Assembly (NCBI RefSeq): GCF_014635705.1
Contig: NZ_BMDI01000001.1
Location: 1,628,008 to 1,692,007 of the forward strand
DNA from: Oxalicibacterium faecigallinarum
GTDB taxonomy: Bacteria > Pseudomonadota > Gammaproteobacteria > Burkholderiales > Burkholderiaceae_D
DNA: 64,000 nt
Reading direction: 5' to 3'
The notes under the pieces: generated by a model
What the model saw: only the letters and a program-made list of their open reading frames with translations
Databases searched by the model: none
What the model was told of the DNA's origin: nothing
Position numbers and translations under genes: made by a program
Shown here: positions 39,065-53,206 of the stretch, one piece after another
Position numbering within the stretch: the stretch's first letter is position 1
Layout of the letters: the number at the start of each line of letters is the position of its first letter

Positions 39065-40795
39065 TCAGACTTCGTGCTCTGCATGGCCTGCGGCATCAGC
39101 AGCACGCAACGCCTGCACCTGATAAGCAATATTCGTCAGGAACAGCAAATCCTGATAGGCCGGCAGATCGAAGCCCTGACGATTCCCTTCGCGGTTATCA
39201 AGCAGCAATTCTTCCAGGAACTTCACCGCACCATCTGTCGGCCACACTTCCATGATCTTTCCCATCACGTGGGGGAATTCGTCGATATGACGTTGTCCCT
39301 TTTCCGCCTCGGAACGCTCCCACGGCGCAACGTGACCATTGAATGCCTTCTTGAAGCGCGCTGCCAACGAATCGTAACGTTCCTTGTCATCTACCATCCG
39401 GTACAGATCGAACAGATGCAACCAGCGCAATGGCGAAGTCGGCTGCGCATCCGTTTCCAGAATCGAAATCGCACGTTGCGGCTGATTCATATGGACCCAG
39501 AATTCCGCCTCCTGAATCTCGTCGAGAATTTCTTCCGCAACGACGACACTCATGCCGGCAAACGGATCATCCAGTTCCGGCAAACCTCTTTCCTGCGCAG
39601 GTGCTGGTGATACCGGACGCTCCGGCATATCGCTCTTGCGGCGCATCTTGCGACCAAACAGTGCCAATGCCGATCCCACACCGCCCGAGGCTGCGCCATT
39701 CTGGGTTGTCGGCTGCGCATCATCCTCTGCGGCAGACGCGATTACCGGCGACTGCGACTGCTTCTCCTCTTCTGCATCAAACATGGGCACCATGTTCTGC
39801 CACGACGCCTGTTCGACTTCGGAACGCGCCTGACGCACACGCCAGACCAGCCAGCCAATCGCCAGCAGGCAAATCAGCAAGAGGAAATAAAGAATATAAG
39901 TAACGCTGCTGGTTGCAGTTGCATTGCGGGCCTGATCCAGTGCCAGCGATTGCGCGGCATTCTGCTTTTGCAACGCTTCGGTCCGGCGTTCCAGCGCGGT
40001 CATTTTTTCCTGCAACTGCAACAGGGCTCTGTCACTTGCGGACAGATCGGCGTGCGGTTCAAGCGCAGCCGCAGCAACCTCTTCCACACCTTCAGGCACC
40101 GCTGGCACCGCAGAAAGATCGTAGCTGAGCGCAAGACGCTGGCGGAGTACATAGTTGCCATCCACCGCATCATCACCCAGTTTCAGCACGCTCTTTGCCG
40201 GCTCTTTGGTCGTGCCGGCATTCCTATTCGCGCTCCTGTTTGCCGCTTTCGATGCCTGCGGCTCACGCACTGCACCCTCATTGGAATCGGCAGCAGCACG
40301 ACGTGGTTTAGGCGCTGGCTTGGATTCCGCGGCAGATTGACGCGCTGCCTCGGACGAGGGCATGGCCAGATTCTCCTGACGCTGCGGTGCAACCAGCGGT
40401 GCGCTTGGCTGGGAAGTCGGCAAGTCGAGCAAAATCGCATATTCGCGCTGCATCTGCGGCGCGCAGGTGTAGCTGACGGCAAGCATGGCCGCCGGTTCAT
40501 TGACCGGTCCACGCGTCGTAATCAGCAAGGAATGGCTGTTTTCACGGAAAGAAACAGAGGTGGCGCCACCCAGCGAAGCGCCATCGAATCCCTGCAGGCG
40601 CGCCTTGAAACAATTCCTGTCAGCCGTCGCTGCATCGCTTCCAAACAGATTGACCTGCGTGCGTAAAGGCTCGCTCAGGGCAGACAGCACGCGCATTTCA
40701 CCAAATCCCCAGGCCAATGCCGCACTGCCATACAACAAGGTCGCACAGGCAATCGCCATCCGCGCGACGACCGCAAGTCTGCCATGCCATGACAC
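39065..40795 (-). CDS. fimV: FimV-family polar/pilus scaffold protein
   Basis: A membrane protein that organises type IV pilus and polar functions. The N-terminus has the FimV mark GFGEMRVLSALSEPLRTQVNLFG right after the signal peptide, followed by a beta domain up to TRGPVNEP. A Lys/Ala/Pro-rich linker, a coiled coil (LLQLQEKMTALERRTEALQKQNAAQSLAL) and one TM helix (SVTYILYFLLLICLLAIGWLVW) come next. A cytoplasmic TPR-like end (FWVHMNQPQRAISILETD) closes it. The start is uncertain: GTG at 40795 gives a basic n-region and a good signal peptide. ATG at 40759, GTG at 40906 and a longer frame to 41005 are other options. Shorter than Pseudomonas FimV. Confidence 0.82.
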   Translation of the reverse strand: MSWHGRLAVVARMAIACATLLYGSAALAWGFGEMRVLSALSEPLRTQVNLFGSDAATADRNCFKARLQGFDGASLGGATSVSFRENSHSLLITTRGPVNEPAAMLAVSYTCAPQMQREYAILLDLPTSQPSAPLVAPQRQENLAMPSSEAARQSAAESKPAPKPRRAAADSNEGAVREPQASKAANRSANRNAGTTKEPAKSVLKLGDDAVDGNYVLRQRLALSYDLSAVPAVPEGVEEVAAAALEPHADLSASDRALLQLQEKMTALERRTEALQKQNAAQSLALDQARNATATSSVTYILYFLLLICLLAIGWLVWRVRQARSEVEQASWQNMVPMFDAEEEKQSQSPVIASAAEDDAQPTTQNGAASGGVGSALALFGRKMRRKSDMPERPVSPAPAQERGLPELDDPFAGMSVVVAEEILDEIQEAEFWVHMNQPQRAISILETDAQPTSPLRWLHLFDLYRMVDDKERYDSLAARFKKAFNGHVAPWERSEAEKGQRHIDEFPHVMGKIMEVWPTDGAVKFLEELLLDNREGNRQGFDLPAYQDLLFLTNIAYQVQALRAADAAGHAEHEV

Positions 40796-41083
40796 TTGCT
40801 GATCGCTGCTCAAATATTCGAACTTGTTACGCACAAACACCTTGTTAACCTGATCAACGCCGTCGCGACTGTTGTACTGACGGACGTTGCTATCCCCTGA
40901 TTTCACAATGTCGTATCTGCAACCGCAAGAAAAAGGCTTGGGCAGGTCGCGTGTATACAAGCGTAAGTATGAACAAATGCCGCATGTGAAACGCGCATTT
41001 TTCAATTTTTAACATTACTCCGTTTAACAATGCAACACGCATGCCATGGCAGGAACCTTCCGCGACACAACATAACGCACCCC

Positions 41084-48448: not shown

Positions 48449-50221
48449 ATGAGCAACGATCCAAAAAGCGGCAAACCCGACACCAAAGCCGACGCCAACG
48501 CGCCTTCGCCTAACCCGGCCAGCTCCAACTTCCTGCGCGGCATCATCGACAGCGATCTCGCCAGCGGCAAACACACCCAGCGCAAGGATCAGAGCGGCCA
48601 GCCGTTGCCTACCGTGATCACGCGCTTTCCGCCGGAACCCAATGGTTACCTGCACATCGGTCATGCCAAATCGATCTGCCTCAACTTCGGCCTCGCACGC
48701 GATTACGCCGGCCGCTGCAACCTGCGCTTTGACGACACCAATCCAACCAAGGAAGAACAGGAATACGTCGACACCATCATCGACAGCGTGCAATGGCTGG
48801 GCTTCGACTGGCAGGATCAGGGCGGCGAACTGCGTTTTGCCAGCGACTACTTCGATCAGTTCTACGCCATGGCCGAATACCTGATCACTGCCGGTCATGC
48901 GTATGTCGATAGCCAGTCCGCTGACGACATGGCCAAGAATCGCGGCAACTTCAGCGAGCCAGGCAAGAACTCGCCTTTCCGCGATCGCCCTGCAGAAGAA
49001 TCGCTGGACCTGTTCCGCCGCATGAAGGCAGGCGAATTCAAGGATGGCGAACACATCGTGCGCGCCAAAATCGACATGGCCTCACCCAACATGAACATGC
49101 GCGATCCGGCCATCTATCGCATCCGCCATGCGCATCACCATCGCACTGGCGACAAATGGTGCGTGTATCCAATGTACGACTTTGCGCATCCGCTCGAAGA
49201 CGCAATCGAAAACGTTACCCACTCCATCTGCACGCTGGAATTCCAGGATCACCGCCCCTTCTACGACTGGGTACTGGAACGTCTGGCCGAAGGCGGCTTC
49301 TTCACCAAACCGCTGCCGAACCAGTACGAGTTTGCACGCCTCAACCTCACCTACGCCATCACCAGCAAGCGCAAGCTGCTGCAACTGGTCGAAGAAAACA
49401 TCGTCGATGGCTGGGACGATCCGCGCATGCCCACCATCGTCGGCATCCGTCGTCGGGGCTACACGCCGGAAGCGATCCAGCTCTTCGCAGATCGCATCGG
49501 CGTCGCCAAGGCCGATAGCTGGATCGACATGAGCATTCTCGAAGGCGCACTGCGTGACGACCTCGACGAGAAGGCACCACGCGCCATCGCCGTGCTGCGC
49601 CCGCTCAAACTCATCATCGACAATTTCCCCGAAGGCGAAACCGTCGAATGCAGCGCGCCAGTGCATCCGCATCACCCGGAACGCGGCGTACGCACCTTCC
49701 CGATCAGCAAAGAACTCTGGATCGAACAAGAGGACTACATGGAAGTGCCAAGCAAAGGCTACTTCCGCCTCTTCCCCGGCAACAAGGTGCGCCTGCGCTA
49801 TGGCTACGTGGTCGAATGCACGGGTGCCGACAAAGACGCCGACGGCAACATCACCGCCGTGCACTGCACCTACTTTCCCGACAGTAAATCGGGGACGGAA
49901 GGTGCCAACAACTACAAGGTCAAAGGCAACCTGCACTGGGTCAGCGCCGCACACGCACTGGAAGCCGAAGTCCGCATGTACGACCGCCTCTTCAGCGACC
50001 CGCATCCCGACGCCGGCGGCAAGGATTTCAAACAGGCGTTGAATCCAAATTCGAAAGAAGTGATCACCGCGTATCTGGAACAAGGCATGTCATCGGCCAA
50101 ACCGGACGACAAGTTCCAGTTTGAACGCCATGGTTACTTTGTCGCGGATCGCGTGGATAGCAAGGACGGGAAGCCAGTGTTCAATCGGGCTGTAACGTTG
50201 AAGGATGGTTGGGGTAAGTAA
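48449..50221 (+). CDS. glnS: Glutamine-tRNA ligase
   Basis: Class I synthetase that charges tRNA-Gln, 590 residues. HIGH motif: RFPPEPNGYLHIGHAKS (about 54-70). KMSKS-type loop: the class I GlnRS variant TYAITSKRKLLQLVEE (about 308-323). RFDDTNPTKEEQEYVDTI and VVSVR-type anticodon-binding beta barrels (SKELWIEQEDYMEVPSKGYFRLFPGNKVRLRYGYVVEC) are present. The first 45 residues are a Pro/Asn/Ser-rich lead common in beta-proteobacteria. It ends in a terminator directly before the AT-rich defence island. Confidence 0.97.
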   Translation: MSNDPKSGKPDTKADANAPSPNPASSNFLRGIIDSDLASGKHTQRKDQSGQPLPTVITRFPPEPNGYLHIGHAKSICLNFGLARDYAGRCNLRFDDTNPTKEEQEYVDTIIDSVQWLGFDWQDQGGELRFASDYFDQFYAMAEYLITAGHAYVDSQSADDMAKNRGNFSEPGKNSPFRDRPAEESLDLFRRMKAGEFKDGEHIVRAKIDMASPNMNMRDPAIYRIRHAHHHRTGDKWCVYPMYDFAHPLEDAIENVTHSICTLEFQDHRPFYDWVLERLAEGGFFTKPLPNQYEFARLNLTYAITSKRKLLQLVEENIVDGWDDPRMPTIVGIRRRGYTPEAIQLFADRIGVAKADSWIDMSILEGALRDDLDEKAPRAIAVLRPLKLIIDNFPEGETVECSAPVHPHHPERGVRTFPISKELWIEQEDYMEVPSKGYFRLFPGNKVRLRYGYVVECTGADKDADGNITAVHCTYFPDSKSGTEGANNYKVKGNLHWVSAAHALEAEVRMYDRLFSDPHPDAGGKDFKQALNPNSKEVITAYLEQGMSSAKPDDKFQFERHGYFVADRVDSKDGKPVFNRAVTLKDGWGK

Positions 50222-50225
50222 CTTA

Positions 50226-50254
50226 AAAAAGGAGGCTAAATAAGCCTCCTTTTT
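50226..50254 (+). terminator. Terminator of glnS, left border of the defence island
   Basis: The stem GGAGGCT/AGCCTCC with loop AAATA is followed by T5 and preceded by A6, so it can act on both strands. Confidence 0.9.
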
Positions 50255-50301: not shown

Positions 50302-50880
50302 ATGCAATTCAGATTGCCTTCAGCATTTCTCATTTTTATCGGATCCTATCTTCCGTTAGCTGTCATTCTAGCTATACAAGATATTGAATGGGCATGGTGG
50401 AGTCAGTCGATCTGTACATCATTTGATTTAAACAAGTGCGTCTTTAATCCCTTTAGTAACGCAAACCTTTCTCTCTCCTTTGTTTGCATCACAGCACTAT
50501 CTCTTTTGATCGCGACATGTTCATTCAAAAAAATTTCATATCCATATGAAATTGAAATTACCTCCGTAAAGGCCATCCCTAACGACATAATTAATTATGT
50601 GTTTCCCTATGTAGTGTCTTTCATGGGGATTAGCTACGATCAACCTGAAAAACTTTTCGGCTTCGTTGTGTTCATTATGTGGATGTTTGCGATCACATAT
50701 AAATCAGGCCAAATTATCATGAATCCTGTTCTTCTAATTTGGCAATGGAAGCTCTATGAAGCGAACATCATAATCAATGGAGTAAATCGAGAAGTTCGCA
50801 TATTGAAGCAAGGGACATTAGTACAAGGCCATCAAAAGGCTCAAACGATCCAAGATTTTTATGTAGTCAAAGACTATTGA
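50302..50880 (+). CDS. kwaA: Kiwa defence protein KwaA (four-helix membrane protein)
   Basis: A 192-residue membrane protein, recognised mainly through its partner and its layout. Four hydrophobic helices are at about 6-26 (SAFLIFIGSYLPLAVILAI), 55-74, 95-112 and 117-135, with a cytosolic tail of about 55 residues (NVREV-like segment INGVNREVRILKQG). Published Kiwa KwaA is a roughly 200-residue four-TM protein that senses phage-induced membrane change and controls KwaB. Base composition is clearly more AT-rich than glnS or the following DUF2214 gene, and codon use (AAT, ATT, TTA) differs. The ribosome site is weak (AGAAAG). kwaB follows 21 bp later. The homology call would need a profile search. 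Confidence 0.72.
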   Translation: MQFRLPSAFLIFIGSYLPLAVILAIQDIEWAWWSQSICTSFDLNKCVFNPFSNANLSLSFVCITALSLLIATCSFKKISYPYEIEITSVKAIPNDIINYVFPYVVSFMGISYDQPEKLFGFVVFIMWMFAITYKSGQIIMNPVLLIWQWKLYEANIIINGVNREVRILKQGTLVQGHQKAQTIQDFYVVKDY

Positions 50881-50901
50881 TTTAAGGGGGGAAGACAAAC
50901 A

Positions 50902-51816
50902 ATGAGAGATGAATTTAATGCACTTCGTGCTTTCGATTACGCTCAAGCCAATATGCATCTATGGGTCTTTAAACGAAGTACTACTGCAAAAAAATACAAT
51001 GCCTTTTATGTGCAAACTGATCCGGAGCTAACGGCAACGTTAAAAGCGTTAGTGCAATCCGAATTAAGACGCATCACCGAATATGCGACTTACACCTATC
51101 TTGCAGAAACAAATGAAAATAGTTGTTTAGGTACGGATCATAGAGAAACCGATTTTTCTCTATTGAAAATTCAAGTTGATCGGCCAGAACCGGAATGTCG
51201 CGCCAGAAGCATCAACGATCTAAAAAATGCCGAAGGCTATCTGGTGAAATTTTCAGCCGGTGGCCAAACTATTTACGCTGTAAAACGCTCTACTTCCACT
51301 TGGAAGACTTCATACCCGACAAAATTCATCAATATGATTTTCTCTGAAGGAGAGCTATCTGCAGCTGAGAATAATGGATTCTCTATCGAGAAAAATTTCG
51401 ATTTTTTTTGCACCGATACGTACGCATTTATTGCAAATAAGAGAGGATTCGAGTCTGCGATGCAATATAAAGAATCATATTCACAAGCATTCTCTGCCTT
51501 ACGTCAAATACCCGCTTTTTCTGCATTATTTGTCGATCTGACACCACTAATCACATACGTTGGCAACAACTCTATTCAACTTCGACGCATGGCAGTTGTT
51601 CAGCAAAAAGCTTTATTTGATCAACCGAATTTTCTTCAAAACTTAAGGGAAGTAAGCATAAGACGAGAATGGGGCATCAATTTTGATCCAGCCACAAATC
51701 AAATTATCGCGTGCGATCAAACTGCCAAATCCATATTGCAAGTTTTATTAGATCATCGTCTCCTTAGCGAAGTGACCTCTAATACTTACGACGTTCCCGA
51801 CGCGACTAGAATTTAA
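50902..51816 (+). CDS. kwaB: Kiwa defence protein KwaB (DUF4868)
   Basis: A 304-residue cytosolic protein matching the DUF4868 pattern. The centre reads FSIEKNFDFFCTDTYAFIANKRGFESAMQY (about 160-189), where the FDFF and FIxNKxxFE runs are characteristic. It ends with a Leu-rich segment and ILQVLLDHRLLSEVTSNTYDVPD. The N-terminal 130 residues are mixed alpha/beta (WVFKRSTTAKKYNAFYVQTD, GYLVKFSAGGQTIYAVKRS). In Kiwa, KwaB is the DNA-binding effector acting with KwaA against phage. A strong GGGGGG ribosome site lies before the ATG. It is AT-rich like kwaA. Together they occupy about 1.5 kb between glnS and a gene of normal composition. Confidence 0.8.
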   Translation: MRDEFNALRAFDYAQANMHLWVFKRSTTAKKYNAFYVQTDPELTATLKALVQSELRRITEYATYTYLAETNENSCLGTDHRETDFSLLKIQVDRPEPECRARSINDLKNAEGYLVKFSAGGQTIYAVKRSTSTWKTSYPTKFINMIFSEGELSAAENNGFSIEKNFDFFCTDTYAFIANKRGFESAMQYKESYSQAFSALRQIPAFSALFVDLTPLITYVGNNSIQLRRMAVVQQKALFDQPNFLQNLREVSIRREWGINFDPATNQIIACDQTAKSILQVLLDHRLLSEVTSNTYDVPDATRI

Positions 51817-51820
51817 GCAA

Positions 51821-52276
51821 ATGAATTCGGCTGCCGCTTTTATTCATCACCTCGCATTTCTAGCGATCATGCTAATGCTTTCGTCAGAAATGCTGCTGCT
51901 CAAACAAACGCTGACGCTAGAGTCAGCGAAAAGAATCATCCGCTACGACGCCATCTACGGCATGGCAGCAGGTTTTGTTCTGGTGATCGGTGGTTTGCGT
52001 GTGATGTACTTTGAAAAAGGTGCCTATTACTACATGCACAGCGCGCCCTTCTTTGCCAAGATGGCGCTCTTTATCCTCGTCGGCCTGATCTCGATTTATC
52101 CGACCATGACTTTTTTGAAGTGGAACAAGTCAATCAAGCAAGGCATTTTGCCAAACGTCACCGAAGCACAAACCCGCACGCTGCGTCTGATCATCCATGT
52201 CGAACTGACCTTGCTTGGTCTGATGATTTTGTGCGCGGTGCTGATGGCAAAAGGGATTGGTTATATCGGCAACTGA
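51821..52276 (+). CDS. DUF2214 membrane protein
   Basis: A 151-residue inner-membrane protein with four helices: FIHHLAFLAIMLMLSSEMLLL, YGMAAGFVLVIGGLRVMYF, APFFAKMALFILVGLISIYPTMTFL, and a last one near 122-145. HHLAF, RYDAIYGMAAG and YYYMHSAPFFAKM are family marks. No function is known. Its start is 4 bp after kwaB, but its base composition returns to that of the chromosome, so it probably belonged to the pre-insertion context rather than the defence unit. Confidence 0.83.
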   Translation: MNSAAAFIHHLAFLAIMLMLSSEMLLLKQTLTLESAKRIIRYDAIYGMAAGFVLVIGGLRVMYFEKGAYYYMHSAPFFAKMALFILVGLISIYPTMTFLKWNKSIKQGILPNVTEAQTRTLRLIIHVELTLLGLMILCAVLMAKGIGYIGN

Positions 52277-53129: not shown

Positions 53130-53206
53130 TGGTCGGGGTGAGAGGATTCGAACCTCCGGTCTCTACGTCCCGAACGTAGCGCTTTACCGGACTAAGCTAC
53201 ACCCCG
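53130..53206 (-). tRNA. tRNA-Pro (anticodon CGG)
   Basis: On the minus strand, the acceptor CGGGGTG pairs with CACCCCG. The D arm is GTAGCTTAGTCCGGTAAAGCGC, the anticodon stem CTACG/CGTAG encloses TTCGGGA (anticodon CGG), and the T arm contains GGTTCGAATCC. Discriminator A and an encoded CCA end it. All helices are complete. Confidence 0.95.

Follow-up and report, generated by a model that had tools for sequence, protein, structure and literature searches.

A predicted two-gene Kiwa system in a probable core defence hotspot between glnS and a DUF2214 gene of an Oxalobacteraceae chromosome

A pair of genes in a 64,000-nucleotide stretch of Oxalicibacterium faecigallinarum DNA (the window, meaning the whole stretch that was analysed) probably constitutes a complete two-gene Kiwa system in an exchange slot, or core defence hotspot, between glnS and a DUF2214 gene of an Oxalobacteraceae chromosome. 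We put the probability of this reading at about 0.85. The spot after glnS resembles a bay in which immunity genes can be parked and exchanged, because the insert differs, and is often defence-like, in most related species examined. The Kiwa pair would be one occupant of the slot; other AT-rich, often defence-like cargo occupies the same interval in congeners and follows glnS in some other genera. The identification of Kiwa is by itself fairly ordinary, and the glnS slot is the larger finding.

The two ORFs are located on the same strand, kwaA directly upstream of kwaB, with a gap of 21 bp (Table 1). The stop codon of kwaB precedes the start of the DUF2214 gene by 5 bases. The GC content is 0.371 for kwaA, 0.395 for kwaB, and 0.386 for the pair, versus 0.548 for the window, and the lowest of the 1.5-kb GC steps in the window (0.377) starts at 50251, on the Kiwa island. 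The GC3 values of kwaA and kwaB (0.389 and 0.331) are far under those of glnS (0.741) and the DUF2214 gene (0.625). The hairpin scan returns two terminator-like sites in the region versus a shuffle mean of 1.0, and the promoter scan returns no sigma-70-type match upstream of kwaA. In addition, no integrase is recognised in the island of the window. The locus agrees with the preliminary description of this DNA, which had reported two ORFs of this size and spacing, more AT-rich than their neighbours, set between a glnS terminator and a DUF2214 gene, and without an integrase of their own.

Table 1. Features of the window and contents of the glnS–DUF2214 slot in related genomes. Positions without a locus prefix are those of the window.
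Feature	Position	Strand	Place or content	Evidence
646-aa ORF	39065–41005	−	upstream region	
glnS	48449–50221	+	left slot flank	Pfam PF00749, PF03950, PF20974
Terminator-like hairpin, glnS–kwaA gap	50226–50254	+	within variable segment	scan: 12-pair stem with T tail
kwaA, predicted membrane protein, 192 aa	50302–50880	+		PADLOC PDLC00215, E 1.7e-72; profile versus solved KwaA
kwaB, DUF4868/KwaB, 304 aa	50902–51816	+		PADLOC PDLC00237, E 1.4e-127; PF16162, 151 bits; profile versus solved KwaB 9mrx
DUF2214 membrane protein gene	51821–52276	+	right slot flank	PF09980, 165 bits
G010 (H. fonticola) slot			SIR2_2-like	weak, below cut-off
G012 slot	L047:1983–3533		DUF6119	
G006 slot			AriA + AriB-like (PARIS-like)	DUF4435 just below Pfam cut-off
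G003 slot	L049:1561–2932		small TM protein + TPR-like protein	no PADLOC match
G005 (H. contaminans) slot	L050:655–1706		Cap15 + 148-aa protein	
G011 slot			GmrSD_N/NsnA + HEPN	
G002 slot			D12 adenine methylase + DndB/DpdB-like protein	
G001 slot			TIR-STAND, PDC-S60	
G007 (O. solurbis) slot			AbiU/AIPR	
G009 slot			SLFN/AlbA with HATPase	PADLOC label pAgo
G008 (O. flavum) slot			HTH (XRE) regulator + membrane protein	native GC
Kiwa pair of a Pseudomonas syringae plasmid	L152:3630–4915			
Kiwa pair of G681	L141:499–2025			

The congeners comprise Herminiimonas and Oxalicibacterium, both Oxalobacteraceae in the NCBI taxonomy, with one genome per species. The glnS gene is present at least in part in all 13 genus genomes, full-length in 11 and split or cut in G012 and G004. 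The DUF2214 gene is full-length in 10 of the 12 congeners, degenerate in G009, and not found in G004. In the G009 locus (L055), only scattered pieces match DUF2214 to the right of the slot. The slot is readable, with DUF2214 and at least the 3′ part of glnS on one contig, in 11 of the 12 congeners, G004 being too fragmented. The interval spans 1,179–3,124 bases in 10 of these 11 and 10,602 bases in G007, and it is empty in none of them. Ten of the 11 carry AT-rich cargo (GC 0.356–0.417), different in each; for G007, only the first part of the slot is counted, the GC content of the whole 10.6 kb being 0.547. With the window included, 11 of 12 slots are under GC 0.45. By eye, the bases after the glnS stop differ among congeners and the hairpin of the window is not common to them. 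Going beyond the preliminary description, we read the locus as an exchange slot and assign the hairpin after glnS to its variable part.

PADLOC matches at E<1e-10 are found in 8 of the 12 genus slots, window included; they are gene matches, not complete systems. The labels are partly generic: the G008 slot passes this threshold with an ordinary HTH regulator. For G008, a raw PADLOC E-value was therefore not accepted as sufficient by itself, and its match is left out of the count. No two genus slots have a defence gene in common among the ORFs that were compared, and the only cross-slot matches are between the regulator and membrane-protein pairs of G008 and G007.

In the G005 slot, the 148-aa protein after Cap15 has a weak SAVED4 match only (E 0.0024), and the scans made find no CD-NTase beside Cap15; the two genes are possibly a two-gene variant of their own. 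A 517-aa DUF6119 protein (418 bits) stands alone in the G012 slot, has no PADLOC match, and is a candidate defence gene. An 84-aa membrane-like protein and a 314-aa weak TPR protein form a candidate defence pair in the G003 slot.

Of 362 1-kb windows that cover as much as 18 kb up to glnS (6 kb in G003), none is under GC 0.45, and after the DUF2214 start, 2 of 377 are. The gene order upstream of glnS is conserved with few exceptions, and the region beyond DUF2214 has a looser order and native GC. For a 646-aa ORF of the window, in the otherwise largely syntenic upstream region, only two of 11 congeners have a match. As a matched control, we compared by GC the gltX flank of the window's genome and ten congeners (G006 and G004 have no gltX locus there). 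The 1.5 kb downstream of gltX has a GC content of at least 0.46 in 11 of 11 genomes, although this flank is also AT-richer than gltX itself, by 0.13 in G008. None of 10 ordinary window genes matches PADLOC. These slot controls are local and matched (gltX) and do not amount to a genome-wide null.

Outside the genus, 65 glnS downstream regions (20 + 6 + 39) were taken from a similarity list; they are spread over genera and non-random. Cargo was scanned in 19 of the 65 genomes, chosen for its AT-rich or defence-like appearance, and 13 of the 19 give PADLOC matches at E<1e-10. The matches are ApeA, PDC-S60, AbiLi, RT_UG17, NsnA (twice), PDC-S46, PDC-S33, HEC-06, AriA/AriB, retron RT-Toprim I-C, PDC-S14, and one protein with the label pAgo. 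DRT and PARIS-like genes are among the cargo of some of these glnS flanks. The remaining six (G179, G316, G257, G293, G202, and G162) give no match at this threshold. The GC content is more than 0.08 under that of glnS downstream in 11 of 39 regions and upstream in 4 of 39, and it is near native at the sampled glnS flanks of genera such as g5, g52, g12, and g6. In genus g56, AT-rich proteins of 363, 550, 332, and 387 aa follow directly after glnS (L189, L192, L193, and L195); they have no PADLOC match at E<0.001 and are candidates for undescribed systems.

Another explanation is that the glnS flank is merely a permissive spot, with a defence content that arises because much AT-rich accessory DNA is defence-like. 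The slots of G012 (DUF6119), G003 (TM and TPR proteins), and G008 (XRE regulator and membrane protein) have no defence match, and the same holds for the six scanned genomes named above; many of the sampled flanks of other genera are near native GC, as this explanation would allow. We nevertheless consider it rather unlikely, given defence-type matches in two thirds of the genus slots (8/12) and in 13 of the 19 genomes scanned outside the genus, and given that no comparable cargo follows gltX, as judged by GC.

How the cargo enters the slot bears on a further alternative, in which elements with an integrase, such as tRNA-targeting ones, use the slot as their attachment site and the integrase is lost or acts in trans. 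Such site-specific integration would fit the strict left limit at the glnS stop, right after which the sequences diverge by eye, but the limit may look sharp simply because non-coding DNA should no longer align at such distance. Two further observations are in its favour. In genus g54, the first 60 bases after glnS (L075, L076, and L077 of G065, G117, and G149) resemble tRNA-arm pieces by eye, a resemblance that has no RNA model support. In G158 and G179, we read ORFs beyond the cargo as IS-like transposases, which weakens a wholly element-free picture. However, direct or inverted repeats at the slot ends (~150 bases each) exceed shuffles in none of the 12 slots. ARAGORN detects a tRNA neither in the 11 congener loci nor near glnS in the window, whose single tRNA is at 53130, and an Rfam search of slot ends in 16 loci yields no tRNA match, even at a lax threshold. 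Site-specific integration is thus an unlikely origin of the cargo. With no tRNA gene and no Rfam tRNA match in the loci searched, and repeats not above shuffles, a tRNA or attachment-site remnant was rejected. The other Rfam matches at slot ends are sub-threshold look-alikes of leaders, sRNAs, and microRNAs and were set aside. No integrase is recognised among the scanned slot genes.

For the exchange slot, the simplest account, which is a guess, would be that the conserved genes on either side recombine homologously and cargo is thereby replaced. Such recombination between conserved flanks was proposed for cDHS1 (PMC10250203). The only hint of it here is in G012, whose glnS is closest to that of the window in its C-terminal part (89.4%), not in its N-terminal part (82.0%), but contig breaks confound the comparison, as the two parts come from separate contigs of a metagenome assembly. 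In G002, the glnS stop is overlapped by the first cargo ORF, which may therefore be reached by read-through from glnS; unlike this cargo, the Kiwa pair of the window stands behind a hairpin. We tentatively extend the exchange-slot reading, at somewhat under even odds: the 3′ end of glnS would be an integrase-free, mostly single-system immunity slot across Oxalobacteraceae-type genera, kept filled by ongoing replacement via flanking core genes, and its unannotated AT-rich occupants (DUF6119, the TM and TPR pair, Cap15 with its 148-aa partner, and several 330–550-aa g56 proteins) would be undescribed defence systems.

The preliminary description had called the pair Kiwa and had named the lack of a match to DUF4868 or KwaA as the finding that would speak against it. 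Both proteins match the corresponding PADLOC profiles over their full length (residues 1–191 for KwaA and 2–304 for KwaB), and the PF16162 (KwaB) score of the second protein is far above the cut-off of 26.3 bits. The DUF4868-like run noted earlier in this protein is present (FDFFCTDTYAFIANKRGFES), and residues F168, K180, and E184 are invariant across an alignment of 17 KwaB sequences. A profile from these 17 sequences retrieves the solved KwaB chains (9mrx) with an E-value of 7.1e-6, and a KwaA profile from relatives retrieves solved KwaA (9o0i/9mrg) with an E-value of 4.3e-13. The NCBIfam equivalog cut-offs, which are curated naming thresholds and no defining biological feature, are missed by both proteins (48.3 vs 100 for KwaA and 27.3 vs 200 for KwaB), indicating that the pair is a distant subgroup.

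The four helices once ascribed to KwaA hold up in part. Hydropathy gives three clear hydrophobic regions (residues 3–29, 51–79, and 118–140), but the fourth helix (residues 96–107) appears only in a low-confidence model (pLDDT 48), which was left out of the fold search. The KwaB model is of medium confidence (pLDDT 62) and was built from two sequences. In Foldseek, all six of its matches at E≤0.001 are KwaB, and the next match has an E-value of 0.35. TM-scores to solved KwaB are ~0.3, with 10–12% identity in the structural alignment; the rank and E-value were relied on, and the TM-score was not.

Within the genus, KwaB is found in 1 of 13 genomes, the window's own. It is absent from all 12 congeners searched, and the pair is therefore not fixed at glnS in relatives, the other finding that the preliminary description had named as contrary. 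Samples of 399 genomes from the order and 369 from the class, each with the own genome included, contain KwaB in 10 and 8 genomes, respectively, and 7 of the 8 exceed the Pfam cut-off. The pair also occurs in further families of the order, one of which has the nearest relative found (67%), and on plasmids. Among 72,556 plasmid records, nine have a KwaB relative, each with less than 60% identity, and none of 50,697 phage records does. Among viral contigs, the window protein and two other queries find no KwaB relative, and a further query finds one distant Kiwa. A KwaA match adjoins KwaB in 17 of 21 related loci. Two pairs look damaged: in L152, from a Pseudomonas syringae plasmid, only the later KwaA part matches, and in L141 (G681), KwaB is split over two frames. 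Patchy spread together with plasmid relatives is what a mobile accessory pair would show and, with the base composition, supports the horizontal acquisition that was suggested at the outset.

The idea that these are remote KwaA- and KwaB-like proteins with another role, not anti-phage, draws on the missed equivalog cut-offs and the low identity to solved KwaB, and it is highly improbable in view of the full-length profile matches, the PF16162 score, the gene order kept in 17 of the 21 related loci, the fold search in which only KwaB is a significant match, and the other defence-like genes in the same slot of congeners. Comparison of the sequences thus supports the assignment of the pair as predicted Kiwa anti-phage genes KwaA and KwaB, a distant new member. 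Known Kiwa forms a KwaA–KwaB supercomplex; its KwaB binds injected DNA and, without cutting it, stops replication and late transcription. By homology, KwaB of the window would act in the same way, and an anti-phage function of the pair is predicted by analogy with published Kiwa.

The pair is a distant addition to a known system, and solved structures are available onto which it can be mapped. The slot is located by one conserved gene and mostly holds one short system per genome, which makes for an easy search for new defence systems by reading the sequence after glnS, and it provides a clean case for studying the movement of defence genes that have no recognisable mobility genes beside them. 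We found no earlier report of the glnS slot in the open-access literature, and no paper on Herminiimonas, Oxalicibacterium, or Oxalobacteraceae is among the top matches listed in wider searches of that literature. The slot is notable for its short, mostly single-system cargo, for the lack of a recognised integrase, and for its recurrence across species and genera.

Compared with the solved Kiwa systems (PDB 9mrx, 9mtn, 9nyu, and 9o0i), the window pair is alike in its adjacent genes with KwaA first, in its full-length profile matches, and in a KwaB model whose best and only significant fold match is KwaB; it is unlike them in falling under the NCBIfam equivalog cut-offs and in its ~10–12% identity to solved KwaB. 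Core defence hotspots are a known class, to which the glnS slot is best assigned as a new member. In this class, cDHS1 and cDHS2 of Pseudomonas aeruginosa (PMC10250203) share with it conserved core flanks, variable defence content, lower GC, and no single mobile-element type. In the same source, cDHS1 has a median of 26 kb and is compared among strains of one species, whereas the glnS slot spans 1.2–3.1 kb in 10 of 11 congeners, holds mostly one system, and recurs across species and genera. The defence islands of the E. coli pan-genome (PMC10121019) are mostly prophages, satellites, or further elements of known type, and their median occupancy is 8%. The E. coli hotspots resemble the glnS slot in their fixed chromosomal positions and exchangeable defence systems; in contrast, the glnS slot is filled in 11 of 11 readable congeners, and its scanned genes include no recognised integrase.
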